64,000 bases of DNA, taken from positions 4,464,001 through 4,528,000 of the forward strand of contig NZ_LT670844.1 of the NCBI RefSeq assembly GCF_900141755.1, given 5' to 3'. Source of the stretch: Bradyrhizobium lablabi (GTDB lineage: Bacteria; Pseudomonadota; Alphaproteobacteria; Rhizobiales; Xanthobacteraceae). A model generated the notes under the pieces. That model ran no database searches and was not told the DNA's origin. It worked only from the letters and a program-made list of their open reading frames with translations. The translations under genes and the position numbers were made by a program. This document shows, piece after piece, positions 20,017 to 44,752 of the stretch (position 1 is the first letter of the stretch; every line of letters begins with the position of its first letter).

Positions 20017-21747
20017 TCACGCCTCCCGCAGCATCGCCTTGCGCGCCAGCGCGAGCCCCATCAGCACGAAGGCCGACGTCACCTCGGGGCCGCCGACGAG
20101 GATGCGGGTCGGGGTCTTCATCTTGTTCCATTCATAGGCCTTGAACGGGCCACGGCGGCCGCCTTCGCCGGCGTGCGCGACGATACAATGCAGCGCCGGC
20201 GTGAAGGTCGCGACATCCGCCCCGAGATGGCCGAGCGCGATCAGCGCCAGCGCCGCGTCGAACGCGTTCATCTCGCCCGTGATCAGCACACCCTGCACAT
20301 AGGCCAGCACGCGTTCGCGGATGAAATCGAACGCGCCGTCGGGGTCGATCGCGCGTCGGGCGGCGAGCGGCAGCGCGAGGTACGCCGCATAGCATCGGCC
20401 AAAATAGGCGCAATAGAGCTCGGGCAGATAATAGATGTGGGCGCGGGGATCGCAGAACGCGCCGCTTGCCGCGAGCTTCTTCTGGAAGCCGATGATGCGC
20501 TGAACCGTGTCGAGCCGCTGCGGCGTCTCGATGATCTTCCAGCGCACCAGATTGCGGAAGCTCACTTCCAGAATATCGAGATTGAGCGTCGGATCGAGAT
20601 CGTTGCCGAACGGCCGCTCGCCGGCGAAATTATCGATCCAGGTGACGACGCCGCCTTCGTAATCGATGTTGTCGTTGAGCGGCACGGTCACGAGCGGCTC
20701 GTTGGCGCCGCCGCGGACCTGGTAGCCGGCATAAAAATCCAGTAGCGGCTGCTCCAGGATCGGATCGTCCGAGCCCGCCTGGGTCGCGGCCGAAAACGCG
20801 CACGCGGTCGTATCGCAATCCGGCACATAGATCCCAAAACCCAGATCCTGCTTGATCTGGGCGAAGAAGCGCGAGAAGCGCGGATGCGGCAGGGGCGCCA
20901 GCGCGGTGATGACGGAAAACGGCGAGCCATCCTGCGCGCGCACCTCCTCGCGGCTGGTGCTCAGGCAAAACTCGACCATCTCGCTGACCGCCCGGCGCGA
21001 CGCCGCGGCCTGATCCGGCGAGGCCAGTCCGGTTTCCATAAAACTCAGCAATGCCTCGGTGAAGAAGGCGTCGTAATAGGCCGAGCGGTGGCGGATCTGC
21101 ATCGGCTCCCACATCGGCTCGGCGATGCCTCGCCAGGGCGGGTTGATCAGGGCGCGGGCCGGCGAGCGCGCGATGAAGATGCGGGCGAGGTTGAACAATA
21201 ATGTCGAGTTCTTGTAGCCGCGCGAGTTCAGCCCGGTCAGCGCCATCAGGAATTCGCGGCCACGCAGATCGGCGTCGCCAATCAGGTTGAAGGCGGCGTA
21301 GGTCGGGATGAACCCGTTGTTGCCGAACGAGCGTAAGAGATGCGCGCCGCAGGTCCGGATCACGGCCTCGATCTCGGCAAGCTCGGGCCCGCGCGCCGGC
21401 GCCGGCGCGGGGGCGGGCTTTGGATGCTTGAGGTCAATGGTGTCGAGCAGTTCGGCGACCGGCTGGCCGATCGCGGCCCAGTCCGGGGTCTCGTCGTCGC
21501 GCGCGGCGATCAGCGCGCCGCGCAGGCGTTGCAGGCGCGGCGCCTCGGATAGCTCTTTCAGGCCGGTCCGGCACAAGAGCGCCCGCAACGGCGGATTGCC
21601 GAGCGCGGTCCTGTAGAATTTGGCCAAATGCGGGTCGCCGCCGGGTGCGTGCCTGAGCAGGGGATCGCAGAGGTCATACAGCGACACCCCGTCCTTCCGG
21701 GCCGTCAATGCGCGGTAGGCGGCACCGGCAACATGCTGAAAACTCAT
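20017..21747 (-). CDS. Conserved hypothetical protein (576 aa), function unknown
   Basis: I do not recognise this family. The Met at 21747 (MSFQHVAGAAYRAL) is taken as start; 21759 (MRNFMSF) is possible, and the frame beyond that runs through a family B repeat. The protein is mostly alpha-helical with many Trp and aromatic residues and no signal peptide or transmembrane helix. Notable segments are TGLNSRGYKNSTLLFNLARI, PWRGIAEPMWEPMQIRHRSA, VPLNDNIDYEGGVVTWIDNF and GNDLDPTLNLDILEVSFRN. Acidic residues around a Trp-rich helical core recall alpha/alpha-toroid enzymes such as terpene cyclases, but this is weak. Confidence 0.7.
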   Translation of the reverse strand: MSFQHVAGAAYRALTARKDGVSLYDLCDPLLRHAPGGDPHLAKFYRTALGNPPLRALLCRTGLKELSEAPRLQRLRGALIAARDDETPDWAAIGQPVAELLDTIDLKHPKPAPAPAPARGPELAEIEAVIRTCGAHLLRSFGNNGFIPTYAAFNLIGDADLRGREFLMALTGLNSRGYKNSTLLFNLARIFIARSPARALINPPWRGIAEPMWEPMQIRHRSAYYDAFFTEALLSFMETGLASPDQAAASRRAVSEMVEFCLSTSREEVRAQDGSPFSVITALAPLPHPRFSRFFAQIKQDLGFGIYVPDCDTTACAFSAATQAGSDDPILEQPLLDFYAGYQVRGGANEPLVTVPLNDNIDYEGGVVTWIDNFAGERPFGNDLDPTLNLDILEVSFRNLVRWKIIETPQRLDTVQRIIGFQKKLAASGAFCDPRAHIYYLPELYCAYFGRCYAAYLALPLAARRAIDPDGAFDFIRERVLAYVQGVLITGEMNAFDAALALIALGHLGADVATFTPALHCIVAHAGEGGRRGPFKAYEWNKMKTPTRILVGGPEVTSAFVLMGLALARKAMLREA

Positions 21748-21827
21748 GAAATTTCTCATCCGCAGCGGGCAGACCCGCGCGTTCCCTTCAAAGACCAGTG
21801 CTGAAGCATCTTCCGGTCCCGCGGCTT

Positions 21828-21940
21828 CATCCTTCGAGACGCCCGTCTTCGCCCTCTGGGCTACGCCGGGCTCCTCAGGATGAGGTCTTAGACCCTCATG
21901 GTGAGGAGCGCGGCATCGCCGCGCGTCTCGAACCATGAAG
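21828..21940. repeat. Palindromic repeat, family B copy 4
   Basis: CATCCTTCGAGACGCCCG, then CTCCTCAGGATGAGGTC, then CTCATGGTGAGGAGC and GTCTCGAACCATGA. It has the same modules as the other B copies in a different order. Confidence 0.85.
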
Positions 21941-22048: not shown

Positions 22049-22375
22049 GCGGCGACGCGGCATTTCGCGCCAGTCTGGGCATTCGGAACGCAAGCGGCAC
22101 GCAGGGGTTAAAACGGGACATAAGGCCCGATTTTAAAAGGGAACTCGAGGTGTGGCCGGCAAGGCCCAATCGCTCAAAATGCGTCTTTAGAATATGTCAA
22201 TGAGGTTGCCCCATACGCCCCAGCGGGCTAAAGACTTCGCTGCTGCGGTGCCGCAAATTGAGCGCAATTGGACGGCAAACCGTCCCTTACTCCCTAAAAC
22301 CTAAACGGCGCAGGCGCGACTAAAAAGGCGTGCCCCAAAAAAATGACGACGTCGATTGACCAGGAACGAAACGCC

Positions 22376-23236
22376 ATGAATGTAGGCCAGTTACGCATTT
22401 CCCGCCGCTCGATCGCTATGGCCGCCGCCTTGGTCGGCATGGTGTCGCTGGCGATTGGCGCCCATGCTGCGCTCAACATGCGCGCGCTGGATGCCGCCAA
22501 GGCGATCGAGACCGAGCAGAGCACGTTTGCCGCCGGCAAGCATGCCTCGAAGATCGCACTCGTGATCGGCAACGGCAATTATCCCGACGCGTCCGATCCC
22601 CTGGCCCAGCCGATCAACGACGCCCGCGCGCTGACGGCCGCACTTCGTCATAACGGCTTTGACGTCGACGTCGTCGAGGATGCTTCCAGGGACGACATGG
22701 CCCGCGCGGTCGAGCGGATGAAGGCCAAGATCCGTCCCGATTCCGTGGTCATGCTGTTCTTCGGCGGCTATGGCGTCCAGGTCGGCCGCGAAAGCTTTAT
22801 GATCCCGGTCGATGCCACGATCTGGAAGGAGACCGATGTGCGCCGCCAGGGCGTCAGCATCGAATCCGTGCTCGACATGATGAAGGAGCAGGGCGCGAGG
22901 GCAAAACTCGTCGTGATCGATGCCTCTAGGCGCAACCCCTATGAGCGCCGCTTCCGCGCCTTCTCCCATGGGCTGGCCCCGATCGCGGCCCCCGACAACG
23001 CGTTGATCCTGACCTCGGCCACCCCCGGCAAGGTCGCCGACGACGGCAAGGGCCGCCACAGCGTGCTGATGACCGAGCTTTTGGCCAATCTGAACGCGCA
23101 GGCCACGGGCGCCGAGACCGTCTTCAACAAAACCCGCGTCGCGATCTCGCGCGCCTCCGACGGCGAGCAGGTCCCCTCCGTCTCGTCCTCGCTCTTGGAA
23201 GACGTCCGCCTCGGCGGCGAAAGCGCCGGCGGGTAA
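22376..23236 (+). CDS. Caspase-fold (peptidase C14-like) protein lacking the catalytic His and Cys
   Basis: A 286-residue exported protein; residues 9-31 form a signal or anchor. The p20-like domain starts at KIALVIGNGNYPD (about 59). Active family members read SGHG and DACR; here the equivalents are FFGGYGVQ, with Tyr132 in place of His, and IDASRRNP, with Ser184 in place of Cys. It should therefore be proteolytically inactive. Start 22376 has AGGAA about 10 bp upstream; 22343 has no ribosome binding site. A longer paralogue with the same losses lies at 42785-44269. Probable roles are scaffold or sensor; unproven. Confidence 0.85.
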   Translation: MNVGQLRISRRSIAMAAALVGMVSLAIGAHAALNMRALDAAKAIETEQSTFAAGKHASKIALVIGNGNYPDASDPLAQPINDARALTAALRHNGFDVDVVEDASRDDMARAVERMKAKIRPDSVVMLFFGGYGVQVGRESFMIPVDATIWKETDVRRQGVSIESVLDMMKEQGARAKLVVIDASRRNPYERRFRAFSHGLAPIAAPDNALILTSATPGKVADDGKGRHSVLMTELLANLNAQATGAETVFNKTRVAISRASDGEQVPSVSSSLLEDVRLGGESAGG

Positions 23237-23631: not shown

Positions 23632-24534
23632 TCACTTCGCATCCGCAGCTGCCGTCAACGCCCTTACCGGATCCCCCTCGCGCAGCAGCGCGCCGGCGCG
23701 CGCCACCACGATGTCGCCTTCCTGCAGGCCTTCCTTGATTTCGACCTGGCCGTTGAGCATCAGCCCGACCGCGACCCGCCGCGTCTCGATCCGCCCGCGC
23801 CGCACCACCTGGACCACGGTGCCGGCCGAGCCATAGAGCACGGCGGTGAGCGGCACCGACACGCCGCAGCTCTGCCCGGTCGTGATCCCCGCGCGGCCGG
23901 AGGAATTGACCAATAGCCGCTGGTTCGCCGTCAGCGCGATGAAGACCTGGCCGAGCTGGCTGTCGGGCTGCACCGTCGGCGCCACCCGCCGCACCCGCCC
24001 CGCCACCTCGGGCCCGCCGACCACCTTGACCCGCGCCGGCTGGTTGACTTGGAGTTTTGCAAGATCCGCGGTCGGCACCAGGCCGATGAGATCGAATTCG
24101 CTGCGCGCGATGATGGAAAACAGCGCTTCCCCGCGCCCCGAGGCCTGCGCCCCGATCACCGCGGACGAATTCGAGATCAGGCCTGCCACCGGCGCCTGCA
24201 CCACCTGCATGCCGCCTTCGGGCAGCGTCAGCCGGGCGAGCGTCTGGCCGGCGGTCACCGTATCCCCGGCATCCGCCAGGATTTCAGCCACCTTCAACCC
24301 CGGCCGTTCGGGGCGCACCGCCGTCTCCTCCCGCGCCAGCACGATGCCCGACACCTCGACGATGTCGTTGAAGCAGGATTTTGCGGCTTTGAGCACGGTG
24401 ACCGCCGCGCCCTTGGGGGCGTCGGGGTCGTCGGCGGCGAAGGTGGGGTGGGGGAGGAGGGTGAGGAGGGCTGCGGCGGCGGGCGCGAGTAAGGTGCGCG
24501 AAAGCCTCAGCGAGGCGAAAGGATTCATCGGCAT
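23632..24534 (-). CDS. RND-type periplasmic adaptor protein, orphan
   Basis: A 300-residue membrane-fusion-type protein with a signal peptide (ending PTFAA). SCFNDIVEVSGIVLAREE opens the domain, the lipoyl-like region is AEILADAGDTVTAGQTLARL, and a beta-barrel and membrane-proximal domain follow. A coiled-coil hairpin is short or missing. No RND pump gene is adjacent. A paralogue at 40817-41752 shares the SCF-D-V-V-GxxxxR-E opening and does have its pump, so this copy may be a relic of duplication or serve a distant pump. Confidence 0.85.
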   Translation of the reverse strand: MPMNPFASLRLSRTLLAPAAAALLTLLPHPTFAADDPDAPKGAAVTVLKAAKSCFNDIVEVSGIVLAREETAVRPERPGLKVAEILADAGDTVTAGQTLARLTLPEGGMQVVQAPVAGLISNSSAVIGAQASGRGEALFSIIARSEFDLIGLVPTADLAKLQVNQPARVKVVGGPEVAGRVRRVAPTVQPDSQLGQVFIALTANQRLLVNSSGRAGITTGQSCGVSVPLTAVLYGSAGTVVQVVRRGRIETRRVAVGLMLNGQVEIKEGLQEGDIVVARAGALLREGDPVRALTAAADAK

Positions 24535-24761: not shown

Positions 24762-27700
24762 ATGAATAAACCTAAAGCTGCAGATTACATCCGCGAGTAC
24801 CTCGTGCGCATGGCCGAGATACGCGGGACCGGCGGGGCCACCAAAGAAACATCCTATTACAGCGCCCTCGAAAACCTTTTGAACCATTTCGGCAAGGACC
24901 TCCGCCCTCGAGTTATCTGCAACGGCCAGCTCCGTAATCAAGGTGCCGGAAACCCAGACTTTGGCCTCTATACGAAAACCCAACTGCAGGGTGGCGAGCC
25001 GCGCCCCGCTCAAATTCCTGAGCGTGGAGTCATTGAGGTGAAGGGCCTCGCCGACAAGAATTGGCAAACGGCCAAGAGTGCGCAGGCGACAAAATATTTT
25101 GGACATTACCACTTGGTGCTCGTGACCAACTACCGGGAGTTTCGGCTTATTGGCGAGGATGAAAATGGAAAAGCAACGGAGCTTGAGCACTATGTCCTAG
25201 CGATTGATGAGCCCTCTTTTTGGAGTATGACGGCGAATCCCGCGCTTGCTGTGGCTGAGCACGCCGTTCATTTCGAAGAATTCCTGCGGCGCGTCATGAT
25301 GACCGCGGCGCCTTTGGTGAAAGCTCAGGATGTCGCCTGGTTTCTCGCCTCCTATGCGAGAGACGCTTTACAAACTCTCAATGCTAAGGGTTCCGGAACG
25401 CTTGATCCCTTGCGCAAGGCTTTGGAAACCGCGCTCGGAATCAAATTTGAAGGTGAGGAAGGAGATCACTTCTTTAAATCCACCCTCATCCAGACGCTTT
25501 TCTATGGAGTGTTCTCGGCCTGGGTTGTGTACGTCAAGCAAAGTATCAACCGCTTTGATTGGAGGGCCGCCGCCTATACTTTGACCGTGCCGATGGTGAA
25601 AGCGCTATTTGAGCAAATCGCCACGCCAAGCAAGCTTGGCGCACTTGGCCTCATTCCAATACTTGATCGGACTGCTGAAGCACTCAATCGGGTCGACCAG
25701 AAAGCCTTTTTTAAAACCTTCGATACAGGCGAAGCAGTACAACATTTCTATGAGCCTTTCCTGCAAGCGTTCGATCCAGAACTCAGAAAGAGTCTAGGCG
25801 TTTGGTATACGCCCAACGAAATCGTTACCTACATGGTGGAGCGCGTGGATCATGTCCTCCGCACTGAATTGGGGCGGCCCAATGGCCTCGCCGACAAAGA
25901 CGTCTACGTGCTCGATCCCTGCTGCGGGACGGGCACCTATGTAGTTGCGGTCCTAAAGCGGATCGAGAAGACCCTTCGTGCTCAGGGTGAGGACGCGCTT
26001 CTCGCAGATGATATTAAGCAGGCGGCACGAGACCGTGTATTTGGCTTCGAGTTATTGTCTGCTCCGTTTGTTGTTGCTCACTGGCAGGTCGGCAACTACC
26101 TAGCACAGATCGGCGCTCCGCTTGACGCCGCGCACGGAGAGCGGGCATCCATCTACCTCACTAATTCGCTGACCGGATGGGAGCCGCCAAAGGGACCGAA
26201 AGCGAATCTACCGCTGTTTCCTGAACTGGAGCAGGAACGCGATGCTGCGGAGCATGTAAAACGCGATGTGCCGTTGCTCGTAGTCTTGGGAAATCCACCA
26301 TACAACGCATTCTCCGGCACAAGTCCCGAGGAAGAACAGGGCCTCGTCGAGCCTTACAAAGACGGCTTGATTAAGAAGTGGGGCATAAAAAAATTCAATC
26401 TCGACGAGCTTTACGTGCGCTTCATGCGCGTCTCTCAGCGCCGCATTGCGGAGGGCACGAAACAGGGCGTTGTCTGCTACATCTCAAGCTTTTCGTACCT
26501 GTCTGACCCATCTTTTGTTGTTATGCGTCAGCGTTTGCTGAATGACTTCGATAAGGTCTGGATTGATTGCCTGAATGGCGATAGTCGCGAGACAGGTAAG
26601 AAGACGCCGACCGGCGAACCCGATCCTTCTGTCTTTTCGACGAGCTACAACCCCGCTGGCATCCGTCTCGGGACGTCCATTGGTCTCTTCACCCGCAAGC
26701 TTGCGCACAGCCCAGCCAAAGCAGTTAGCTACCGAGATTTTTGGGGCAAATCCAAACGCGAGGATTTGCTTAATAGCCTCACCGCGACGGACCTCGAATC
26801 TTCCTATCTTCAGGCGCAGCCTAACGAGGAAAATCGATTCTCTCTTAGACCTCAGGATGTTTCGGACACCTACAGGTCCTGGCCAAAGGTCACAGAACTA
26901 GCTGAGTTGTCTCCGATTGCCGGACTACAGGAAATGAGATTCGGAGCTCTCCTTGCACATGGTCGAGCAGAGCTTGAAGCCAGTATTTCGAATTACCTCA
27001 ACCCTAAAAAATCGTGGGCTGAGGTCGTCGCAACTGCCAGCGGGCCGATACGCGATGCAGGAGCCTTTGACGCCGAAACGTCGCGCACTCGCCTTCTCTC
27101 CAAAGAGCCGTTCAGTGCCTCCAATATTCGGCGTTACAGTCTTTATCCGATGGACAATCGCTGGGCATATTGGAGCGCGGTCCCTACGTTGTGGAACAGG
27201 GCGCGGCCTCAACTAGTCTCGAACGCGTTCTCAGGCAACCAATTCCTAGTGGTCCGGATGTCAGCAGAGCGTCCGGATGAGGGAGTTCCTGCCATGCTTA
27301 CGGCGTCCTTGCCCGACTACCATCTGCTACGCCCGAACGTTGTAGCTATTCCTCTCATGGTTGAACATCATGTTGATAGCGGACTCTTCGCCGCCGAACA
27401 GAAAGCCAATCTTTCCTCCTCGGCTAGGAAATACTTGCGGGCAATCGGTTGCTGCGAGCCTGATAGCGATCCGGCAAGCGCGAAGCTCGTTTGGTATCAT
27501 GCCTTAGCTATCTTCTTTTCTCCACAGTATCTCAAGGAGCATCGGGATGGCGTTCTCACAGATTGGCCGCGTGTTCCTTTGCCAAGCGACCTTTCGACCT
27601 TGCAGAGTTCTGCAGCATTAGGACAGCGGATCGGCGCGCTTCTCGACCCAGATCTCCAGGTTGCGGGAGTTACGAGCGGCACAATTGATTCGCGGCTGGT

Positions 27701-28163
27701 CGGCCTCGGCGCACTTTCGCGAGTCGACGGAAAAGCCTTGAAACCGGTGGACCTCAGCCTCTCCGCCGGTTGGGGACATCGCACAACTAAGGGGATCATC
27801 ATGCCGGGAGCGGGACGAACCAGAAAAGGCTCCTATGATCCCCAGCAGTCTTCGACGCTCAGTAAGACCGACGTCGAGGCACTCGGCGCACCCATCGATA
27901 TTATGTTGAATGACGTGGCAACTTGGCTAGCGGTCCCATCCAGCGTCTGGGAATATCGAATCGGCGGATATCAAGTGGTGAAAAAGTGGCTCTCGTATCG
28001 TGAGGAATCGGTGCTTGGACGCCCACTCACAAAGGATGAGGCTCGAGAAGTTACGGCAATTGTCCGGCGACTAGCTTCGATCATTTTGATGGCGGACGAA
28101 CTGGACTCAAACTACGTCGTTGCAAGAGATGATGCTTTTCTCCCGGCCGCGAATGTCGATTAG
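24762..28163 (+). CDS. Single-chain restriction-modification enzyme (nuclease plus N6-adenine methylase, ISP/IIG-like)
   Basis: A 1133-residue protein. Residues 1-130 carry a PD-(D/E)xK nuclease-like motif (PDF at 65-67, Glu-Val-Lys at 92-94). A helical linker follows, then a gamma-class methylase with SAM motif LDPCCGTGTYV near 385 and catalytic NPPY near 511. The C-terminal ~500 residues should hold the target recognition domain, as in type ISP and related enzymes. The long helicase of true type ISP enzymes is absent, so a IIG-like single-chain enzyme is more likely. Base composition is lower in GC than the flanks, which suggests transfer. Its recognition site is unknown. Confidence 0.88.
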   Translation: MNKPKAADYIREYLVRMAEIRGTGGATKETSYYSALENLLNHFGKDLRPRVICNGQLRNQGAGNPDFGLYTKTQLQGGEPRPAQIPERGVIEVKGLADKNWQTAKSAQATKYFGHYHLVLVTNYREFRLIGEDENGKATELEHYVLAIDEPSFWSMTANPALAVAEHAVHFEEFLRRVMMTAAPLVKAQDVAWFLASYARDALQTLNAKGSGTLDPLRKALETALGIKFEGEEGDHFFKSTLIQTLFYGVFSAWVVYVKQSINRFDWRAAAYTLTVPMVKALFEQIATPSKLGALGLIPILDRTAEALNRVDQKAFFKTFDTGEAVQHFYEPFLQAFDPELRKSLGVWYTPNEIVTYMVERVDHVLRTELGRPNGLADKDVYVLDPCCGTGTYVVAVLKRIEKTLRAQGEDALLADDIKQAARDRVFGFELLSAPFVVAHWQVGNYLAQIGAPLDAAHGERASIYLTNSLTGWEPPKGPKANLPLFPELEQERDAAEHVKRDVPLLVVLGNPPYNAFSGTSPEEEQGLVEPYKDGLIKKWGIKKFNLDELYVRFMRVSQRRIAEGTKQGVVCYISSFSYLSDPSFVVMRQRLLNDFDKVWIDCLNGDSRETGKKTPTGEPDPSVFSTSYNPAGIRLGTSIGLFTRKLAHSPAKAVSYRDFWGKSKREDLLNSLTATDLESSYLQAQPNEENRFSLRPQDVSDTYRSWPKVTELAELSPIAGLQEMRFGALLAHGRAELEASISNYLNPKKSWAEVVATASGPIRDAGAFDAETSRTRLLSKEPFSASNIRRYSLYPMDNRWAYWSAVPTLWNRARPQLVSNAFSGNQFLVVRMSAERPDEGVPAMLTASLPDYHLLRPNVVAIPLMVEHHVDSGLFAAEQKANLSSSARKYLRAIGCCEPDSDPASAKLVWYHALAIFFSPQYLKEHRDGVLTDWPRVPLPSDLSTLQSSAALGQRIGALLDPDLQVAGVTSGTIDSRLVGLGALSRVDGKALKPVDLSLSAGWGHRTTKGIIMPGAGRTRKGSYDPQQSSTLSKTDVEALGAPIDIMLNDVATWLAVPSSVWEYRIGGYQVVKKWLSYREESVLGRPLTKDEAREVTAIVRRLASIILMADELDSNYVVARDDAFLPAANVD

Positions 28164-28165
28164 CG

Positions 28166-28223
28166 TAGCGAGCTCAATTCGCGCTGACTTCGATATTTAG
28201 GGAGGACATTGTTGAGCTCGCTA
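28166..28223. repeat. 12-bp perfect inverted repeat after the methylase gene
   Basis: TAGCGAGCTCAA at 28166-28177 and TTGAGCTCGCTA at 28212-28223 are exact reverse complements separated by 34 bp. The left arm starts 2 bp after the stop codon. It could fold as a transcript hairpin, or be a protein or recombinase site. Confidence 0.75.
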
Positions 28224-28243
28224 AGATTATACGCTATAGGAAT

Positions 28244-28261
28244 TATCACGGAAACGTGATA
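28244..28261. repeat. Perfect dyad in the island intergenic region
   Basis: TATCACG-GAAA-CGTGATA, 7-bp arms with a 4-nt centre. It directly abuts the next palindrome. Confidence 0.75.
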
Positions 28262-28277
28262 CTATTAGGCCTAATAG
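28262..28277. repeat. 16-bp perfect palindrome
   Basis: CTATTAGGCCTAATAG has no spacer. A shorter palindrome CGCTATAGCG follows at 28291-28300, and half of it (CGCTATAG) also occurs at 28232. The arrangement resembles a multi-site operator. Confidence 0.75.
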
Positions 28278-28315
28278 ATGATGTACTAGGCGCTATAGCG
28301 TGGCACCTATGTTGA

Positions 28316-28331
28316 CGCCCGCTTCCGGGCG
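28316..28331 (+). promoter_or_regulatory. Leader hairpin before the 181-residue gene
   Basis: CGCCCG-CTTC-CGGGCG hairpin, 17 bp before the ATG at 28349, with an AGGAG ribosome binding site between the two. It may influence translation. Confidence 0.5.
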
Positions 28332-28348
28332 CCGCACAGGAGCCTACT

Positions 28349-28894
28349 ATGATGCCGCAAGTCACACTTGAAACCTCAACCATTGAACGCATGAAAGCTT
28401 ACGCAGAACCCCTGGTCGATACGATGGACTCAGTGATTTTGAAAGGGCTCGATGCAATCGACATGCTGAAGGCGAAGACCAACGAACCCACCTCCGCCGA
28501 GCGCATCTTTAACCCCGCCTCACCCCCCAACCTTGCCTACACCACCGTCAAATCGGTCGTGTGGAAGGGTAAGCGCCTTTCCCCCGCTGAAGCTTACTGG
28601 AATCCGCTGATGTTCATTGTCATCCGCGAAACTGTGAAGCACATGACGAAGGAACAGGCCCGCAACCTGATCCTCTGCAACAAGGTGACAGGGAAAAAGG
28701 AAGACAATGGATACAAGTACGTCGATGAGGTGGGCGTTTCCATTCAAGGCCAAGACGCCAACAACGCTTGGAAAACGACTTATAACGTTCTACAGGCCCT
28801 CAAAATGCCCTTGGAAGTCATCTTCGCCTGGCAGGATAATCCCAAGGCCGCAACGCCTGGCGCAATTGGCAAGTTCGCTGTTACGTTCGAATAA
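28349..28894 (+). CDS. Hypothetical protein in restriction island (181 aa)
   Basis: Not recognised. The start at 28349 is supported by CAGGAG 8 bp upstream. There is no signal peptide or transmembrane segment. The N-terminal half is helical and charged (residues 1-50); the C-terminal half is compact, with SVVWKGKRLSPAEAYWNPLM, IVIRETVKHMTKEQARNLI, GYKYVDEVGVSIQGQDANNA and VEVIFAWQ-like segments. It lies between the methylase and an HNH endonuclease, all on one strand with low GC, and is followed by a good terminator, so it is its own transcription unit or the end of one. A role in the restriction system is inference from position only. Confidence 0.75.
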   Translation: MMPQVTLETSTIERMKAYAEPLVDTMDSVILKGLDAIDMLKAKTNEPTSAERIFNPASPPNLAYTTVKSVVWKGKRLSPAEAYWNPLMFIVIRETVKHMTKEQARNLILCNKVTGKKEDNGYKYVDEVGVSIQGQDANNAWKTTYNVLQALKMPLEVIFAWQDNPKAATPGAIGKFAVTFE

Positions 28895-28916
28895 TCGAAT
28901 GACAATTCTAAAATCA

Positions 28917-28946
28917 GGGCGGCAGACGTGCCGCTCTTTTCTTTTG
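28917..28946 (+). terminator. Rho-independent terminator after the 181-residue gene
   Basis: GGGCGGCA-GACG-TGCCGCTC hairpin followed by TCTTTTCTTTT, starting about 20 bp after the stop codon. Confidence 0.8.
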
Positions 28947-29104
28947 CTGGCGAGCCAGCCGCTCTACCGTAGGGCAAAGTTAGAAGAGAAACACTAAACC
29001 GTGTCAAAACGTTGCAAGCGGAAGGAAGTGCTGAGTGCTCAGCGGAGCAATGAAATCCAAGGCACTTCGAACCTAACTCAATTCGACGTTAGACGGGCAG
29101 GGAC

Positions 29105-30016
29105 GTGAAGGGAATCTTCGATACAAAAGCGAACTCTGGTTACGACGACGAAATCGTGCGCCGCTACCACTTCCCTCCTCAGTACCGGACTGTGGCCCAG
29201 CAACTGATCGGCGATTGGATTGTTTATCGAGAGCCGCAGCGAAACGGCGGCCGCCGTGCCTACATCGCCGTTGCCAGGGTGCAACGGATAGAGGCCGATC
29301 CGCTCCGTGCCGGCTATTCCTATGCCCTTGTCGACGAGTATCTACCGTTCGATCGGCCGGTGCCATTTGCTAACAACGGCGCCTACGCCGAGGCCGCCTT
29401 GCGCGAAATCAGCAATCCGAGCCGCGTAGGAGCCTATCTGCAGGGCAAGTCGATCCGAATTGTTTCTGATGCGGATTTTGAGGAGATCGTACGCGCTGGT
29501 CTCGGCGAGACGATTGGGCCCGCCAACGCAGTCCGTCCTGAGCTTGATCCTTATCAATTTGACGAGGAGACTTTAGACTTGCTCGGAGCGCCGCCCGCGG
29601 AGCAGGAGAGGCGAATAGAGCAAATTCTTGTCAACCGAAAAATCCGCGAAGCTAGCTTCCGCCGTCATGTTTGCGAAGCTTACGATAACCGGTGCGCCGT
29701 GACAGGACTTCGGATTGTGAACGGCGGCGGAAAGGCCGAAGTCCAAGCCGCGCATATTTGGTCAGTAGCCTCCGGCGGTCCGGACGTTGTTCAGAACGGC
29801 TTGGCGCTGTCGGGAACAGCGCATTGGCTTTTCGATCGTCATCTCATTTCACTAACCGATGATTATGGGCTATTGGTTTCGCACAATAAGGTGCCGGCCG
29901 AATTGCGCAGTCTTTTTTCCAAGCATTTGGACCGTATCCATCTCCCGGACGATCCAAGGCTGTGGCCACATCGCAGCTATGTCGCGAGACATCGCGAAGC
30001 ATTCAGCTCAACTTGA
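29105..30016 (+). CDS. HNH endonuclease with N-terminal PUA/EVE-like region
   Basis: A 303-residue protein starting at GTG 29105. The C-terminal HNH domain (about 180-270) has VCEAYDNRCAVTGLRI, QAAHIWSVASGGPDVVQNG and HWLFDRHLISL, giving the Cys/His core and catalytic His of the HNH_2 type. The N-terminal region (about 1-110, with GDWIVYREPQRNGGRRAYIA and ALVDEYLPFDRPVPF) has the look of a PUA-superfamily (EVE-like) modified-base reader, as in modification-dependent endonucleases; this part is inference. It closes the island after the methylase and unknown gene, transcribed in the same direction. Confidence 0.85.
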   Translation: MKGIFDTKANSGYDDEIVRRYHFPPQYRTVAQQLIGDWIVYREPQRNGGRRAYIAVARVQRIEADPLRAGYSYALVDEYLPFDRPVPFANNGAYAEAALREISNPSRVGAYLQGKSIRIVSDADFEEIVRAGLGETIGPANAVRPELDPYQFDEETLDLLGAPPAEQERRIEQILVNRKIREASFRRHVCEAYDNRCAVTGLRIVNGGGKAEVQAAHIWSVASGGPDVVQNGLALSGTAHWLFDRHLISLTDDYGLLVSHNKVPAELRSLFSKHLDRIHLPDDPRLWPHRSYVARHREAFSST

Positions 30017-34270: not shown

Positions 34271-34603
34271 CCGGACCCTCGTGCGCTCAACCCCAACGGG
34301 TAGGCGCAACCGCACCGGCGGCGCCCCTAATGGGGGCGGGCCGCGTTCATCTGCGGCCTATTTAGCACAGTTTGCGCGGTGTTACCGGCCCTCCACCCGC
34401 ATGGTTAGCCCGGATTATGGGCAGGGAGGGGTAATAAGGCGCGGCGAAATCCCCCACCCCAACCCTCCCCCGCAAGCGGGAGAGGGGGAAGAAAAGCAGC
34501 TTGCTGGGCCCTATCCCTCCCTCTCCCGCCCTTTGCGGGGGAGGGTCGGGGTGGGGGTGTCTCCGCAGCGGCAGTGGTAGTGCGCGTGATAAGCTCAGAC
34601 CGC
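34271..34603. repeat. Gene-free gap with a family A-like variant
   Basis: The variant lies at about 34451-34559: CCCCAACCCTCCCCCGCAAG at the left and GCGGGGGAGGGTCGGGGTGG at the right. It keeps the GGGTCGGGGTG core but lacks the GAGGGGGACTC module. The rest should contain the cyclase promoter; no gene is seen. Confidence 0.7.
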
Positions 34604-36628: not shown

Positions 36629-36773
36629 GACGAATTTCCAAACCGGGCAAGCGGCTTCGATCTCAGCCGCGCCATCTCGGGCCATATCAGGGCGTGGCCT
36701 TTTCCCTTAAGCTTATCCCGGAAGGGGAGGCCGCTCAAAGGAGCTAAAAATAGTCCGGGGTGCTGCAAACTTA

Positions 36774-37658: not shown

Positions 37659-40600
37659 CTACTCAGCCGCAGGCGAGTGCACGATCGAGGGCGGCTGCGG
37701 CTTATGTTCGGCCGGCGGATGCGCACCATGTCCAGCCGGCGCATCCTCGCTCTCCCCGTGCGAGACCACGAGCTTCTTCCCGAAACGCCAGAACAGCGCG
37801 CCGACGTCGTCCATCATCATGAACATCGCCGGCACGAACACGAGAGACAAGACGGTCGAGAACACCAGGCCGCCGATCACCGCGAGCGCCATCGGCGAGC
37901 GGAATTCGCCGCCGGCGCCGAATGCCAGCGCCGAGGGCATCATGCCGGCGGCCATCGCGATCGTGGTCATCACGATCGGGCGGGCGCGCTTCATGCCGGC
38001 GTCGATGATGGCTTCATCCCGCGGCTTGCCTTCGCGAATCGATTCGACCGCGAATTCCACCAGCATGATGGCGTTCTTGGTGACGATGCCCATCAGCATC
38101 AGGATGCCGATCCAGACCGGCGTCGTCAGCTGCTTGCCGGTCACCAGCAACGCGGCGATCGCGCCGCCGATCGACAGCGGCAGCGAGAACAGGATGGTGA
38201 TCGGCTGCAGGAAGGTTCCGAACAATAGCACCAGCACCGCATAGACCATCATCAGGCCGGAGGTGATGGCGGTGGCAAAGCCCGCCGACAATTCGTTCAG
38301 GCTTTCGGCGTCGCCCGACGGGCTCACCTTGACGCCTTTCGGCAGGCTCTTCATGACCGGCAGGTCGTAGATTTTCTTGGTGGCGTCGCCGAGCGCCGCG
38401 GTGCCGACGAGATCGGCCGCGACCGTTGCCTGCCGTTCGCGGTCATAGCGGTTGATGCTGGTCGGGCCCTGGTCGAGTTTGATGTCGGCGATGACCGACA
38501 GCGGCACGCCGCCCTTTTCGCCGTGCTCGCCCAAGGGAACGCGCAACTGCTCGAGCAACGAGAGATCGCCGCGCGCGGCGTCTTCGAGCTGGACGCGGAT
38601 CGGCACAAGGCGGTCGCCGGCGTCGAATTTCGCCAGCGCCGGACCGACGTCGCCGATGGTGGCGACGCGGATGGTCTGCGACAGGCTTTCGGTGGAAACG
38701 CCGAGCCGCGCCGCCAGATCCGCCCGCGGCTGGATCCGCAATTCGGGCCGGTCGAGCGAGGTCTCGGAAATCACATTGGCAATCAACGGAATTCGCTTCA
38801 TCTGGGTCGCGAGTTCGCTCGCAACGTTGCTGACGATGTTGCTGTCGACGCCGGTGACGACCAGCGAGATGGCGCGCAGGCCGTTTTCGTCGAGGAACCA
38901 GAACCGGATATCGGGGACGTTCTCCAGTTCCTGGCTGATCGCGAGTTCGAGTTCGCGCTGGGTGATCTTGCGCTCGGTCTTCGGCGTGTAATTGATGATC
39001 AACGCCGCGCGGCGCACCTCAAAGGTTCCCGGCGGCACCCTTCCGCCGTCGACGAACACGCTTCTGACCTCGGGACGCTTGCGCAGGCGCGCGACGATCT
39101 CTTCGGTGGTCTTCTCGGTAAAGGCGAGCTGCGAGCCCGGCGGCAGCTCCATCGCGAGCAGCGAGCGCGCGGTGTCCTGCGCCGGCAAGAAGCCCTGGGG
39201 CAACAGCGTGATGCTCCAGATCGAGGCGGCGAAGATGCCGAAGCCGATCAGCACGGTGATGAAGTAATGATGCACCGACCAGGTCACGAGCCTTGTATAG
39301 CCCTTCAGCACGCGCCCCGGCGGCGGGTCGTCATGCGCATGATCTTTCAGGAAATAGGCGGCCAGCACCGGCGTGACGAAGCGGGCGGCGAGCAGCGAGA
39401 AGAACACCTGCACCGACACCGTGATGCCGAATTGCTTGAAGAACTGCCCGGCGATGCCGGACATGAAACTTGCGGGCGCGAAGATCGCGATGATGGTCAG
39501 TGAGATCGCGATCACCGCGAGACCGATTTCGTCGGCGGCCTCGAGCGCCGCGCGATAAGGCGATTTGCCCATACGCATGTGGCGCACGATATTCTCGATC
39601 TCGACGATAGCGTCGTCGACCAGAATACCGGTGGACAGCGTAATCGCGAGGAAGCTGACCAGGTTCAGCGAGAATCCCAGAATGTCCATCGCCCAGAACG
39701 CCGGGAAGATCGACAATGGCAGCGAGATCGCGGCGATGATGGTGGCGCGGATATCGCGCAGGAACAGCAGCACGATAATGACGGCGAGAATGGCGCCTTC
39801 GAACAGGGTCGAGATCGCGGCTTCGTAATTGCCTTTTGTGAACTCCACCGAGGTGTCGATCAGTTTCAGATCGACATCGGGATAGGCGACTTTGAGCGCG
39901 TCGATCCGCTTCTGCACAAGGCCCGCGACCACCACGTCGCTGGCGCCTTTGGAACGTTTGATGCCGAGCGCAACCACCGGCTCGCCGTTGAAACGCGCAA
40001 AGGTCCGGCGATCGGCGATGGTATCGGTGACGGTGCCGAGATCGTCGAGGCGCACCTCGCCGCCGCCGAATAGCGGAATCATGGTGCCGGCGAGATCGTT
40101 CAGCGTCTTGGCGCCGGCGAGCGTGCGGATCGCCTGGTCGTTCTTGCCGATCTCGGCGCGGCCGCCGGCGAGATCGACATTGGTGCCGCGCAGGCTCTGG
40201 CTGACATTGACGGCGGTGAGCCCCGCAGCCTGCAGCCGATCGGGATCGAGCGAGACCAGAATCTCGCGCTCGACACCGCCGATACGCTCGACCTGGGCGA
40301 CGCCGCGCACGCCCTGCAGCGCGCGTTTGACCACGTCGTCGACGAAGTAGGACAATTGCTCCGGCGTCTTGCCGGGCGAGATCGCCGCATAAGTGACGAT
40401 CGGCAGGCCGATCACGTCGACCCGCTGGATCAAGGGCTCGGTGACGTTTTGCGGCAAATTGGCGCGGACGCGCGTGACGGCGTCCTTGACGTCGTTGAGC
40501 GCCCGGTCGGTGTTGGTCTCGAGCGCGAACTGGATCGTCGTCACCGACAACCCGTCGGTGATCGAGGAAGAAATATGCCGCACGCCTTCGACGCCGGAGA

Positions 40601-40817
40601 CGCCGTCTTCGATCGTCTTGGTGACTTGCGATTCAAGTTCGGCCGGCGCGGCGCCGAATTGCGATACCGCAACCGAGATGACCGGAATGTCGGCCGACGG
40701 CAGCCGCGTCACCGCGAGCTTGGTAAAACTGACCCAGCCGAGCACCAACAGGATGATCGAAAACACGACGGAGGGCAGCGGATTTCGGATCGACCATGCC
40801 GAGATATTGAGTGCCAT
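37659..40817 (-). CDS. RND efflux transporter permease (HAE1/AcrB type)
   Basis: A 1052-residue inner membrane pump with the AcrB layout: 12 hydrophobic segments in two groups (after residue ~335 and after ~860) and two large periplasmic loops. NPLPSVVFSIILLVLGWVSF is the first helix. LSTGILVDDAIVEIENIVRH in helix 4 carries the Asp used in proton relay. The start (ATG 40817) overlaps the adaptor stop by one base (TGATG). The C-terminal ~35 residues are His/Pro-rich and outside the conserved core. Substrates are unknown. Confidence 0.95.
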   Translation of the reverse strand: MALNISAWSIRNPLPSVVFSIILLVLGWVSFTKLAVTRLPSADIPVISVAVSQFGAAPAELESQVTKTIEDGVSGVEGVRHISSSITDGLSVTTIQFALETNTDRALNDVKDAVTRVRANLPQNVTEPLIQRVDVIGLPIVTYAAISPGKTPEQLSYFVDDVVKRALQGVRGVAQVERIGGVEREILVSLDPDRLQAAGLTAVNVSQSLRGTNVDLAGGRAEIGKNDQAIRTLAGAKTLNDLAGTMIPLFGGGEVRLDDLGTVTDTIADRRTFARFNGEPVVALGIKRSKGASDVVVAGLVQKRIDALKVAYPDVDLKLIDTSVEFTKGNYEAAISTLFEGAILAVIIVLLFLRDIRATIIAAISLPLSIFPAFWAMDILGFSLNLVSFLAITLSTGILVDDAIVEIENIVRHMRMGKSPYRAALEAADEIGLAVIAISLTIIAIFAPASFMSGIAGQFFKQFGITVSVQVFFSLLAARFVTPVLAAYFLKDHAHDDPPPGRVLKGYTRLVTWSVHHYFITVLIGFGIFAASIWSITLLPQGFLPAQDTARSLLAMELPPGSQLAFTEKTTEEIVARLRKRPEVRSVFVDGGRVPPGTFEVRRAALIINYTPKTERKITQRELELAISQELENVPDIRFWFLDENGLRAISLVVTGVDSNIVSNVASELATQMKRIPLIANVISETSLDRPELRIQPRADLAARLGVSTESLSQTIRVATIGDVGPALAKFDAGDRLVPIRVQLEDAARGDLSLLEQLRVPLGEHGEKGGVPLSVIADIKLDQGPTSINRYDRERQATVAADLVGTAALGDATKKIYDLPVMKSLPKGVKVSPSGDAESLNELSAGFATAITSGLMMVYAVLVLLFGTFLQPITILFSLPLSIGGAIAALLVTGKQLTTPVWIGILMLMGIVTKNAIMLVEFAVESIREGKPRDEAIIDAGMKRARPIVMTTIAMAAGMMPSALAFGAGGEFRSPMALAVIGGLVFSTVLSLVFVPAMFMMMDDVGALFWRFGKKLVVSHGESEDAPAGHGAHPPAEHKPQPPSIVHSPAAE

Positions 40818-41752
40818 CAGCGTACCCGCGTGCGATCAAGGTCCTCGGCGAACGTCGTCTTGATCTTGTCGCCGTCGTGCAGCGAAGAGCCGGCGTCGGC
40901 CACGACGACTTCGCCGACGTCGAGGCCTTCCAGGATTTCCGTGCTCGTGTCGGACACCAGTCCGACCCGAACCTTTCGCGTCTCAACCGTATCTCCTTTG
41001 ACCACCTGAACTGTCAGATGGTCAATGGCGGTATGGGGGATCGCGACCCCGCAACTGCGCTTGGCGTCGATATTGGCGCGGGCAAACATTCCGACCTTGA
41101 GCGTCGGGTTGTTGGTCAGCGTGATCCTGACATGGCCGAGCTGGGTTGGGCGATCGATCTGCGGCGAAATCAGCCTGACGCGTCCGGGAAGGTCCGGCCC
41201 GTTGTCCCGGCTGATCCGTGCGGTCGCTCCCGGATTGAGCTTGAGCATGTGGACGCTCGGAACCTGTGCGTCCAGCTCGATTTCATTGTTGACCGAAATC
41301 CGGAACATCGGCCCGGCCTGCGGCGAGGCCGGCGCACCGGCGATGGTCCTGACCTCGGTGACGAGGCCGGGCGCCGGCGCGCGCAGCGATGTGGGGGGCG
41401 GCCTTCCGCCGCCTTGTTGGGATTGGGCGCCGGGCTGCGCCGGGGGCGGGGTCAGCCGCGCCAGTTCCTGATTGTCGGTGACCAAATCGCCTTCGCGGAC
41501 CAAGACCTCCGAAACCTTCGATCCCTCCTGATCGACCCCGACCACCGCTTCCCGGCGCGGCACGATGAACCCGGTGACCCGCACCAGATCGGAGAAACAC
41601 GCATTGGTGGACTTTGTCACAACGACCAGCGCGTTGCTCGGCGTTTCCTTTTCCTCGGGGTGAGGACGGTGCTCAAACCAGTACCATCCGCCACCCAGGG
41701 CAGCGAGGAAAACCACTGCCATTGCAGGCTTGAGGTATTCGGAGAATATCAT
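40817..41752 (-). CDS. RND periplasmic adaptor protein
   Basis: A 311-residue membrane-fusion protein with an N-terminal signal or anchor (residues 7-25). NACFSDLVRVTGFIVPRREA opens the domain, and the lipoyl-like block is SEVLVREGDLVTDNQELARL. A barrel and membrane-proximal region follow. The gene overlaps the pump gene by one base, so adaptor and pump are made together. It is paralogous to the orphan adaptor at 23632-24534. The coiled-coil hairpin is short (a Pro/Gln/Gly insert near residue 110 instead). Confidence 0.92.
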   Translation of the reverse strand: MIFSEYLKPAMAVVFLAALGGGWYWFEHRPHPEEKETPSNALVVVTKSTNACFSDLVRVTGFIVPRREAVVGVDQEGSKVSEVLVREGDLVTDNQELARLTPPPAQPGAQSQQGGGRPPPTSLRAPAPGLVTEVRTIAGAPASPQAGPMFRISVNNEIELDAQVPSVHMLKLNPGATARISRDNGPDLPGRVRLISPQIDRPTQLGHVRITLTNNPTLKVGMFARANIDAKRSCGVAIPHTAIDHLTVQVVKGDTVETRKVRVGLVSDTSTEILEGLDVGEVVVADAGSSLHDGDKIKTTFAEDLDRTRVR

Positions 41753-41970: not shown

Positions 41971-42630
41971 TTACTTGGACGCCGTCGCCTTGTTTTCCAT
42001 ATTGACGACCTGCACCCGGCGGTTGACTTCCGAGAGCGGGTTATCCGCGTCCTTGAGCTTGCTCTTGCCGTAACCGACCGTCACGAGGTCGCTTCCGGCA
42101 ATACCGTATTTGTCGACCAGATATTTCTTGATCGAGTCGGCACGCCGCTCGGAGAGATCCTGGTTGTAGGCTTCGCCGCCGGCGGCGTCGGTGTGACCGG
42201 CGACCACGAAGGTCGAGCCCTTCAGGTCGGGATTGGTAAGCGCCCGTCCCAGCGCCTGGACGGAAGGCATGGACTTTGTGCTGATATCGGCCGAGTTGTA
42301 GTCGAAGTTGATTTCCAGATCGATTTTCGGCTTGTCCTTGACGATGGTGGCGATTTCCTCGCGCTCGGTCGATGAAAGCGAGCGCGTCGACCGGCCGCGG
42401 ATTTGCTGGACAAAACGCCCTTCCTCGGCGCTCACGGCCGGATCGACCTGCTGCGGCCCAACCGACAGGCCGCGGGTCAGCGGCTTCTTGGGCGGCGCCA
42501 GCGCCTTGACGATCTGATCCTCGGTGACATCCCCGGCGACGGCCGTTGCCACGCCAAAGGAAAGTGCTGCGCCGATCGTCAGTAGCGAAAGGATAGCGGC
42601 AAAACTTCCCCTTCCAGACTTTTTCGACAT
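41971..42630 (-). CDS. OmpA family protein
   Basis: A 219-residue exported protein with a signal peptide (about residues 10-32). A C-terminal OmpA-like peptidoglycan-binding domain (about 110-215) has FDYNSADISTKSMPSVQALG, VVAGHTDAAGGEAYNQDLSE and RADSIKKYLVDKYGI; the conserved Asp and Arg for diaminopimelate binding are in these last two blocks. It could anchor a periplasmic complex to the cell wall. It sits between the RND pair and the pseudo-caspase gene, all on the minus strand but with gaps of over 150 bp. Confidence 0.92.
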   Translation of the reverse strand: MSKKSGRGSFAAILSLLTIGAALSFGVATAVAGDVTEDQIVKALAPPKKPLTRGLSVGPQQVDPAVSAEEGRFVQQIRGRSTRSLSSTEREEIATIVKDKPKIDLEINFDYNSADISTKSMPSVQALGRALTNPDLKGSTFVVAGHTDAAGGEAYNQDLSERRADSIKKYLVDKYGIAGSDLVTVGYGKSKLKDADNPLSEVNRRVQVVNMENKATASK

Positions 42631-42784: not shown

Positions 42785-44269
42785 TCAACGCACCCCGTAA
42801 CTGGCGAATTCCTTGACAATATTCGGATCCATGGCCTTGGCGTTGTTTATATCCAGTTCGCCCTCAGAAATCGAGCCATTGCGCTGCTTGGCAAGGCCCC
42901 GCCCGTACAGCGACGACGTCAATCGCGGGTTGATCTTCAGCGCGGCGTCAAAATCGGCAATCGCATTCTTGGCCAGCCCGCTTTTGAGGTTGACCAGGCC
43001 ACGGCTGTCCAGGGCATCGACGAAGTTCGGGCGCAGCCGAAGCGCCTCGTTGCAATCCTTCAAGGCAGCCTGCAGGTCGCCGATCACCGTGCGCGCCCAG
43101 CAGCGGTTGTTGTAGGCCTCGACATCCTTCGGGTTGAGCCGGATGGTGTCGTCGAAGTCCCGGATCGCGAGGCTATAAGCACCTTTACTGGCATAGACCT
43201 GCCCGCGCCGATAAAGCGCGTTCTGATCGTCGGGGTTTTCGGCGAGTTTTGCGGTCAGGCTCTTGATCGTCGGGTCGTCGGCCAGCGCAAGCACCGTCTC
43301 GTCTTTCTTGTCCGTCGACTGGTCGGCGGCAGGCGGCGGCAGGATTTCGACCTTTGGCGGCGGTGGGGGCGGCGGCAACGGCAGCGGGTCGACGCGTGGG
43401 GGCGGCAGAGGAGCCGGGGCCGGCGAAGGCGATTGAGGCAAATTCGCCACCGGGCCCGGAGCAGGCGCAGGCAGCGGTTGAGGCGAAGGCGGCCGATTGC
43501 CGGTGCCCGGGATGAACGAAAAGTCTTCGGCGAGAGACGACGAAATCCACGGCACCTGCTCGCTGCGCGAGGCGCGGGTGACGCCGAGGCGGGTGCGGTT
43601 GAGCGTCTCTTCGGCCATCAGGTCGGGGACGCGAATTTCCTTCAAGAGCTCCTGCACGAACAGGCTGTGATCGCCGCCATTGTCGGAGATGACCGAAGAC
43701 AGCGCCGCCGAATACATCACCAGCGTACCATTCGGTGCGATCACGGGCGCCAAACCCGCGGAAAAGCTGCGGAACCGCCGCTCGAACGGGTTGCGCCTCG
43801 AGGCATCGATCAGGGCGATCTTGACGCCCGCGCCGCGATTGTTGATTTCGCCCAGCACCGACTCCAGGCCGAAGCCATCGCGCCGAACATCCGGTTCGGT
43901 CCAGATCTGCGCGTCGACCGGGATCATGTAGCTTTGGCGGCCGGACTGGACGCCAAAGCCGCTAAAGAAAATCAGCACCACCGAGCCCGGTTTGATCCGT
44001 CCGTAGAGCTTGTCGAAGGCGCGATGCATCGCATCGCCGGTCATGTTTTCGCCGACCTCGACGTTGAATCCGTCGCGCTTGAGTTCGTCGGCGACGTCGC
44101 GGGCGTCATTGATGGGTTCTTTGAGCGGCGCATCGGCGTCGGGATATTTCGCGTTACCGATCACCAGCGCAAACCGGTCCGCCGCCGCAAAGCAGGGAAC
44201 GACAGGCGCGACCGAAAAAATCGCGACCGACAAAATCGAGGTCACAAGCAATAAGAGGCGAAGTCTCAT
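42785..44269 (-). CDS. Caspase-fold protein lacking catalytic residues, fused to TPR repeats
   Basis: A 494-residue protein starting at 44269 (MRLRLLLLVTS), with a signal peptide (to about residue 30). A p20-like caspase domain (about 32-255) begins FALVIGNAKYPDADAP. The catalytic His position reads FFSGFGVQ (Phe105) and the Cys position IDASRRNP (Ser157), so no protease activity is expected. A Pro-rich linker (about 258-315) leads to about four TPR repeats (about 345-480). TPRs suggest protein binding. Its paralogue at 22376 lacks linker and TPRs. An upstream start at 44335 has no support. Confidence 0.88.
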   Translation of the reverse strand: MRLRLLLLVTSILSVAIFSVAPVVPCFAAADRFALVIGNAKYPDADAPLKEPINDARDVADELKRDGFNVEVGENMTGDAMHRAFDKLYGRIKPGSVVLIFFSGFGVQSGRQSYMIPVDAQIWTEPDVRRDGFGLESVLGEINNRGAGVKIALIDASRRNPFERRFRSFSAGLAPVIAPNGTLVMYSAALSSVISDNGGDHSLFVQELLKEIRVPDLMAEETLNRTRLGVTRASRSEQVPWISSSLAEDFSFIPGTGNRPPSPQPLPAPAPGPVANLPQSPSPAPAPLPPPRVDPLPLPPPPPPPKVEILPPPAADQSTDKKDETVLALADDPTIKSLTAKLAENPDDQNALYRRGQVYASKGAYSLAIRDFDDTIRLNPKDVEAYNNRCWARTVIGDLQAALKDCNEALRLRPNFVDALDSRGLVNLKSGLAKNAIADFDAALKINPRLTSSLYGRGLAKQRNGSISEGELDINNAKAMDPNIVKEFASYGVR

Positions 44270-44752
44270 TTCACGGCGGTCCAGCCAACAGGGCGCCGAT
44301 CCCAGCTTGCGCCTCGGCGACCTTACTCTACGCAAACCCCATTATCAAACCGGGCCCGCAAGCCCTGTCAACCATCAACAAGGCCCGCGGTTAAGCGCGT
44401 CAATTAACCGCAACAAAACTTTCAAATCCTGCCAAATCCTGCGCGGCGAAGTGCATCCGGAATCTCCCGCCCAGGTATCTGCGAACGAGCCCATGCACGC
44501 GCATCGGCGCAGCGAACCAGCACAACGTGGCGTTGATCGGCGGCGCGCGAGAGGCTGCGGATATTTTTTCTTAAGGTCGTTTTCGAAATGTGATGTAGCT
44601 CACATTGAGAATCGTCATTGCATTTTCGGGCCAATGCGTTCGGGAATGGTCTCGGTCTATCCGGAACCGGCGCGAGGGTTTGACCTTTGCGGACCGGGAT
44701 GGCTTGCTGCGGACGACACGAAAAATGTTGCAACCAAGAAGAAGTGTGACCT
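44270..44752. other. Divergent promoter region with a CRP-type box
   Basis: About 480 bp between the pseudo-caspase gene and the lactonase gene, with no convincing gene. The perfect TGTGA-N6-TCACA box lies at 44589-44604. A/T-rich stretches such as GGATATTTTTTCTTAAGG precede it. Confidence 0.6.
44589..44604. promoter_or_regulatory. CRP-type box 3 (AATGTGA-N6-TCACATT)
   Basis: TGTGATGTAGCTCACA is a perfect consensus match, and the dyad extends to AATGTGA...TCACATT over 20 bp. It lies 149 bp before the lactonase start and 320 bp before the pseudo-caspase start. Confidence 0.7.

Follow-up and report, generated by a model that had tools for sequence, protein, structure and literature searches.

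Why would a bacterium keep a protein with the fold of a caspase after both residues of its catalytic dyad have been replaced? This question is raised by a gene in a stretch of 64,000 nucleotides of Bradyrhizobium lablabi (contig NZ_LT670844.1, positions 4,464,001 to 4,528,000 of the forward strand), in the following simply called the window. The gene encodes a pseudo-orthocaspase with Tyr and Ser at the places of the catalytic His and Cys, referred to here as the YS protein. An earlier reading made from the letters alone (the sequence-only reading) had described an exported pseudo-caspase whose fold is selected for something besides proteolysis. Our answer, to which we assign a probability of roughly 0.5, is that the YS protein is an orthocaspase that is proteolytically dead, is probably exported and has been retained to serve the cell envelope in binding or as a scaffold. 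The coordinates of all features are collected in Table 1.

Membership of the caspase fold was seen at two levels. The match of PF00656 (Peptidase_C14) to residues 59-276 (E 1.4e-36) is far beyond chance, and the predicted structure, which spans the C-terminal part of the caspase domain of MALT1, matches MALT1 and caspases, with 3h11 (caspase-8:c-FLIPL complex) among the matches. The fold assigned by the sequence-only reading is thus borne out. In the alignment to MALT1, GYG of the YS protein stands opposite GHG and DASR opposite DMCR, and the frame, coordinates and residues given earlier for Tyr and Ser were confirmed. An intact His-Cys pair elsewhere in the YS protein was also looked for and is not there, as none of the 286 residues is a Cys and His occurs only at positions 30, 56, 92, 198 and 228, never at the catalytic place. 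The His-Cys dyad of an active orthocaspase is replaced by Tyr132 and Ser184, and the loss of proteolysis is, judged by the sequence, close to certain. MALT1 itself is a cytoplasmic paracaspase with an active His-Cys dyad and Ig domains, and differs from the YS protein in these features. The NCBIfam model of EACC1-associated caspases stayed below its cut-off for the YS protein (51 of 140 bits). An alternative in-frame ATG, 33 bases upstream at 22343, would give 297 amino acids.

The kind of protein is already described. In the accessible part of the survey by Klemencic 2019 (PMC6426788), YS, Phe/Ser (FS) and Tyr/Ala (YA) pseudo-orthocaspases of Rhizobiales are catalogued (561 of the 582 alphaproteobacterial ones), an FS form with TPRs is included, and an S1-pocket role is given to two aspartates by comparison with TbMC2. 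Going by its residues, the YS protein is such a pseudo-orthocaspase, i.e. a p20 domain with a substituted His-Cys dyad and two pocket aspartates. It shares with the catalogued forms the p20 fold, the Tyr/Ser or Phe/Ser pair and the aspartates, the FS forms having TPRs in addition. In contrast to the YS and YA forms, which in that part of the survey mostly have prolonged C-termini, it ends soon after the domain.

How well is this protein maintained? Orthologues with at least 73% identity to the 286-residue query were found in 34 of the 36 genomes of the genus sample, the own genome included; no match was found in G006 and G035, the latter just 80% complete. In a family draw of 198 genomes, again including the own one, 51 carried a near full-length match of at least 60%. 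The 63 distinct orthologous proteins show no variation at S184, D82 and D182 or in the run DASRRNP. The median pairwise ratio of non-synonymous to synonymous substitution rates (dN/dS, calculated by Nei-Gojobori on related pairs and thus not a site test) was 0.265 in the domain and 0.297 over residues 1-32, and reached 0.683 in the linker. The YS domain is therefore under purifying selection, as the sequence-only reading had expected. Since the dyad is absent and the domain is nevertheless under such selection, the YS protein appears to be kept for a non-proteolytic purpose, in support of the earlier proposal. The same data bear on the idea that the gene is a decaying, nonfunctional copy. Its domain dN/dS is indeed higher than that of the FS paralogue with TPRs (0.176, 23 sequences), and two genus genomes, one of them incomplete, lack it; however, the high identity in the 34 other genomes, the presence in 51 family genomes and the many invariant positions make decay highly improbable.

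Regarding localization, a signal peptide is predicted at the N-terminus. In the 63 orthologues, A29 and A31 are found in all, S9 and R11 in 62 each and R10 in 56, while M1 carries no evidence because the orthologue starts were chosen near the expected start. A twin-arginine motif marks the signal peptides of the twin-arginine translocation (Tat) pathway. Of the genome's 18 caspase frames, that of the YS gene alone has S-R-R within 60 residues of the first Met; the second residue of this motif is R10, with the variation just given, and Pfam and NCBIfam scans gave no match to a Tat profile. Export of the YS protein is likely, and the earlier claim of an exported protein can be retained as a probable one.

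Was catalysis lost once or repeatedly? A tree was built from 96 caspase domains, namely 55 of what we call the dead clade, 39 with His-Cys and two YA proteins of the own genome, C13 and C14. In it, the 55 split off with a support of 100/98, in keeping with a single origin, and the same split was obtained in a quick search without columns 130, 132, 184 and 186 (90 in the Shimodaira-Hasegawa-like approximate likelihood ratio test, SH-aLRT). This tree included 12 of the 63 orthologues; another used 85 of 138 alignment rows, with 29 of the 63. C13 and C14 nest among the His-Cys proteins and thus reflect a separate loss of the dyad. Of the tabulated sites, only 132, 184 and 186 part the dead clade from the His-Cys rows, and 132 does so incompletely, since five members have retained His; these five carry Ala at the Cys site. 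Position 186 is Arg in 52, Lys in two and His in one of the 55 clade rows, versus Asn in 26 and Asp in 13 of the 39 His-Cys rows.

The sampling behind this clade consisted of one family and a class draw holding two genomes of that family, and in these samples the dead clade was found solely within its own bacterial family. The class draw comprised 385 genomes, 36 of which gave a match at 1e-45. Of the 34 matching genomes outside the genus, 28 were inspected at their best locus each, and all 28 loci were His-Cys, five with DACRNNPFERRFR. These orthocaspases of other alphaproteobacterial families, the best matches outside the family, can thus resemble the YS protein in DACRNNPFERRFR, and are unlike it in their intact His and Cys and in Asn/Asp at 186. 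An ERRFR loop invented together with the catalytic loss was consequently rejected: as His-Cys relatives of other families carry DACRNNPFERRFR, the loop predates the loss.

The substituted residues could in principle form a new active site, so that the YS protein would be a hydrolase using the Tyr/Ser pair or Ser alone. Ser184, unchanged in the 63 orthologues, would fit such an enzyme. However, the His site of the same proteins is Tyr in 51, Phe in 12 and His in none, and given this exchange it is not the Tyr hydroxyl that has been preserved. In the dead clade the His site is Phe in 25, Tyr in 23, His in five, Ile in one and Val in one (at least 16 changes on the tree), and the Cys site Ser in 39 and Ala in 16 (at least six changes); the group of the FS paralogue with TPRs (FS-TPR) is likewise mixed, with 18 FS and five YS sequences. 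Tyr/Ser as a new catalytic pair is disfavored by this Y/F and S/A interchange, and a hydrolase is overall very unlikely. The emphasis that the sequence-only reading had placed on the Tyr/Ser pair is, for the same reason, not supported. Together with the basic mark at position 186, the interchange indicates which residues merit testing and which do not.

More insight on the place of action was sought in the gene neighborhood, using 20 YS loci and 22 FS loci from YS-bearing genomes, selected by hand and hence non-random. The nearby paralogue of the earlier reading is real and, with its Phe/Ser dyad, also a pseudo-caspase. In 20 of the 22 FS loci, the FS-TPR gene heads a row continued by an OmpA-like gene, a fusion-protein gene (MFP1) and an RND permease gene; in the two exceptions, the FS gene has the OmpA-like gene on its opposite flank (G119) or no such gene was found (G104). 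In g34, a genus lacking the YS gene, four loci yielded no match to an RND permease. The second fusion-protein gene, MFP2, lies at most 4 kb from the YS gene in 14 of the 20 YS loci and is also downstream in G141. On the other side, the YS gene has u639 as its neighbor in 19 of these 20 loci (the exception being G198) and also in G141. The gene u639 is strongly conserved (mean column identity 74%, 21 sequences), is present in G147 and G248, where no YS gene was found at E 1e-50, and is absent together with the YS gene from G006. The FS paralogue itself was found in 50 of the 51 YS-bearing genomes of the family draw, G141 having none at E 1e-50. The two genes lie 7.4-32.0 kb apart in 32 genomes, far apart on the same contig in seven and on different contigs in 11.

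Table 1. Features of the window discussed in the text (position 1 is the first letter of the window).
Feature	Position	Strand	Remarks
u639	20017..21936	-	divergent neighbor of the YS gene; no Pfam match
YS pseudo-orthocaspase gene	22376..23236	+	ATG 22376, stop ends 23236; 286 aa
Likely signal peptide, residues 1-31	22376..22468	+	SRR (22400-22408), AxA (residues 29-31); predicted
D82, first Asp of the basic-residue (S1) pocket	22619..22621	+	63/63 orthologues, 55/55 clade rows; role by comparison
Y132, catalytic His site	22769..22771	+	TAT, GGYG; aligned to MALT1 His
D182, second Asp of the S1 pocket	22919..22921	+	63/63 orthologues; 54/55 clade rows, one Glu
S184, catalytic Cys site	22925..22927	+	TCT, DASR; aligned to MALT1 Cys
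R186, basic residue marking the dead clade	22931..22933	+	clade rows versus His-Cys rows
RND membrane-fusion protein MFP2	23632..24534	-	HlyD_3; downstream of the YS gene, convergent
RND permease	37659..40817	-	ACR_tran E 3.7e-227
RND membrane-fusion protein MFP1	40817..41752	-	HlyD_D23
OmpA-family protein	41971..42630	-	PF00691 E 2e-22
F/S pseudo-orthocaspase with TPRs, paralogue	42785..44335	-	516 aa; PF00656 E 4e-35; TPRs C-terminal

Altogether, we propose the following mechanism. In one ancestor within the family, the Cys/His dyad would have disappeared and position 186 become basic; its descendants would have retained the fold and, with it, the aspartate pair by which active relatives hold an Arg or Lys side chain. 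The YS protein would then most likely act in the periplasm, holding a basic peptide or a basic segment of a protein without cutting it, and this holding perhaps serves an envelope process encoded nearby, involving the RND pump, the OmpA-like protein and the F/S-TPR pseudo-caspase. Our best guess is that basic-ligand binding in the retained acidic pocket would be what selection keeps; the envelope locus as the place where the YS protein works is likewise a best guess. Of these elements, the sequence, the predicted fold, the conservation, the single origin, the missing dyad and the linkage were observed directly, whereas the lack of activity, the export, the binding of a basic ligand and the envelope role are inferred from them.

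Several observations weigh against a binding protein of the envelope. The domain dN/dS is higher than that of FS-TPR (0.265 against 0.176), and every codon of S184 is TCN, so that selection for Ser is not proven by a codon switch. Conservation of the pocket is common to active relatives and may thus be structural. Regarding the locus, no fusion-protein gene lies within 4 kb of the YS gene in six of 20 loci, the YS gene stands outside the pump operon, convergent and on its own strand, and its linkage to the FS gene is broken in seven of 51 genomes, with the two genes on different contigs in 11. A more far-reaching version, in which the once-only catalytic loss in the family ancestor led to a non-cutting, basic-residue-binding envelope set, with the YS and F/S-TPR proteins now parts of an RND-efflux/OmpA machine sensing or holding a basic peptide, is rather doubtful.

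A dead caspase could also act on its living relatives. In the own genome (7.91 Mb, single contig), PF00656 was found at 18 places. With dyads assigned by alignment, these are 11 full-length and one truncated His-Cys protein, one YS, one FS, one Phe/Ala (FA), two YA and one fragment. Thus, the YS protein might pair with one or several of the His-Cys orthocaspases and tune their activity, as the pseudo-caspase c-FLIP does according to the accessible part of PMC7586951. The 11 full-length His-Cys paralogues, the presence of 3h11 among the structural matches and the finding of at least one His-Cys member in nine out of ten small YS-bearing genomes (30 loci examined) are consistent with such a regulator. 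G141 speaks indirectly against an obligatory partner of this kind. This genome (3.8 Mb, four contigs, rated 100% complete) has only two PF00656 places, the intact orthologue (with an FS dyad) and a YA protein, and therefore no His-Cys member to regulate, though this is one genome, in which His-Cys members could have been lost recently. Although the FS-TPR paralogue is likewise missing from G141, the RND permease and both fusion proteins have stayed with u639 and the orthologue. Overall, a c-FLIP-like regulator is unlikely.

The two YA proteins of the own genome, C13 and C14 (L024, L025), form with L266 a second, separate YA lineage nested among His-Cys proteins, and both have long proline-rich C-terminal parts. 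The fragment, C18 (G000:C1:5679848-5680159), contains the Cys half of a caspase without the His half.

A role in photosynthesis has been proposed for pseudo-orthocaspases, and within the Alphaproteobacteria the pseudo-variants were described as restricted to anoxygenic phototrophs (PMC6426788, accessible part). If the YS protein were a photosynthesis factor, its presence should follow the reaction-centre genes (PF00124). Among the 198 family genomes, 12 have both, 39 only YS, 13 only PF00124 and 134 neither. This weak association (odds ratio 3.2, Fisher p 0.012, no correction for kinship) is in favor of the idea; however, eight of the 12 genomes with both belong to a single genus code, g52. 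In the genus, PF00124 was found in four of 36 genomes, one of which (G006) has no YS gene, whereas no PF00124 match was obtained in 31 of the 34 genomes with the YS gene, among them the own one. In addition, the Bradyrhizobium ancestor reportedly had no photosynthesis gene cluster (PMC10569730, accessible part). As PF00124 is rare and the YS gene widespread, photosynthesis is not its general role and was rejected as such; a photosynthesis factor is extremely unlikely. The tie to photosynthesis made in the survey is thereby corrected for the sampled bradyrhizobia, where the YS gene is general and its presence is not tied to that of reaction-centre genes.

As to experiments, the claim of the sequence-only reading that such proteins are little characterized holds in part: the kind was catalogued in 2019 (PMC6426788, accessible part), and no experiment on an alphaproteobacterial pseudo-orthocaspase was found in the open-access literature searched, subscription papers being mostly outside this search. 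Although alphaproteobacteria and cyanobacteria have many dead caspases, the only knockout of a bacterial one found in this literature is that of SyOC, a YS pseudo-orthocaspase of Synechocystis whose loss raised H2O2 tolerance (PMC7889975, accessible part). SyOC is by description a pseudo-orthocaspase like the YS protein, but is cyanobacterial. A caspase family protein of B. diazoefficiens, bll3611, which might be the YS orthologue, stands at -4.3 in an nnrR-mutant table (PMC6710368, accessible part). The YS protein offers a clean system here, as it is small, single-domain and nearly general in the genus, with one 100%-complete genome free of His-Cys caspases. New in our analysis are the single dead clade, the invariant Ser184, D82 and D182, the basic mark at 186, the spread without photosynthesis genes, G141 and the linkage to envelope genes; the RND/OmpA locus and residue 186 are not among the points of the accessible part of PMC6426788.

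Some further observations concern the window as a whole. Between the two pseudo-caspase genes, several genomes have a cyclase (Cache, HAMP, GAF), an AsmA-like protein and a CRP-type regulator (here 31823-34315, 34604-36685 and 36878-37552). Between MFP2 and the cyclase gene lies an island (24762-30016) with a GC content of 0.54-0.57, compared to about 0.60-0.66 around it, which holds a Type ISP/IIG-like restriction-methyltransferase frame and an HNH frame; none of the 20 context loci gave a retained match to these restriction-like genes at 24.8-30 kb. A defence role of the YS protein was considered and not retained, as PADLOC matched only its generic 'caspase' profile, weakly (E 3.5e-08) and over positions 5-130 of 453. 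Rfam gave no match in the whole window at the gathering threshold. Finally, OmpA-domain places of the own genome stand beside caspase genes in two of eight cases, at C12 (FS) and at the His-Cys orthocaspase C04 (G000:C1:5773228-5773500 and 5774922-5775593), and OmpA-like genes are again found beside other caspase genes in L104, L110, L111 and L121.
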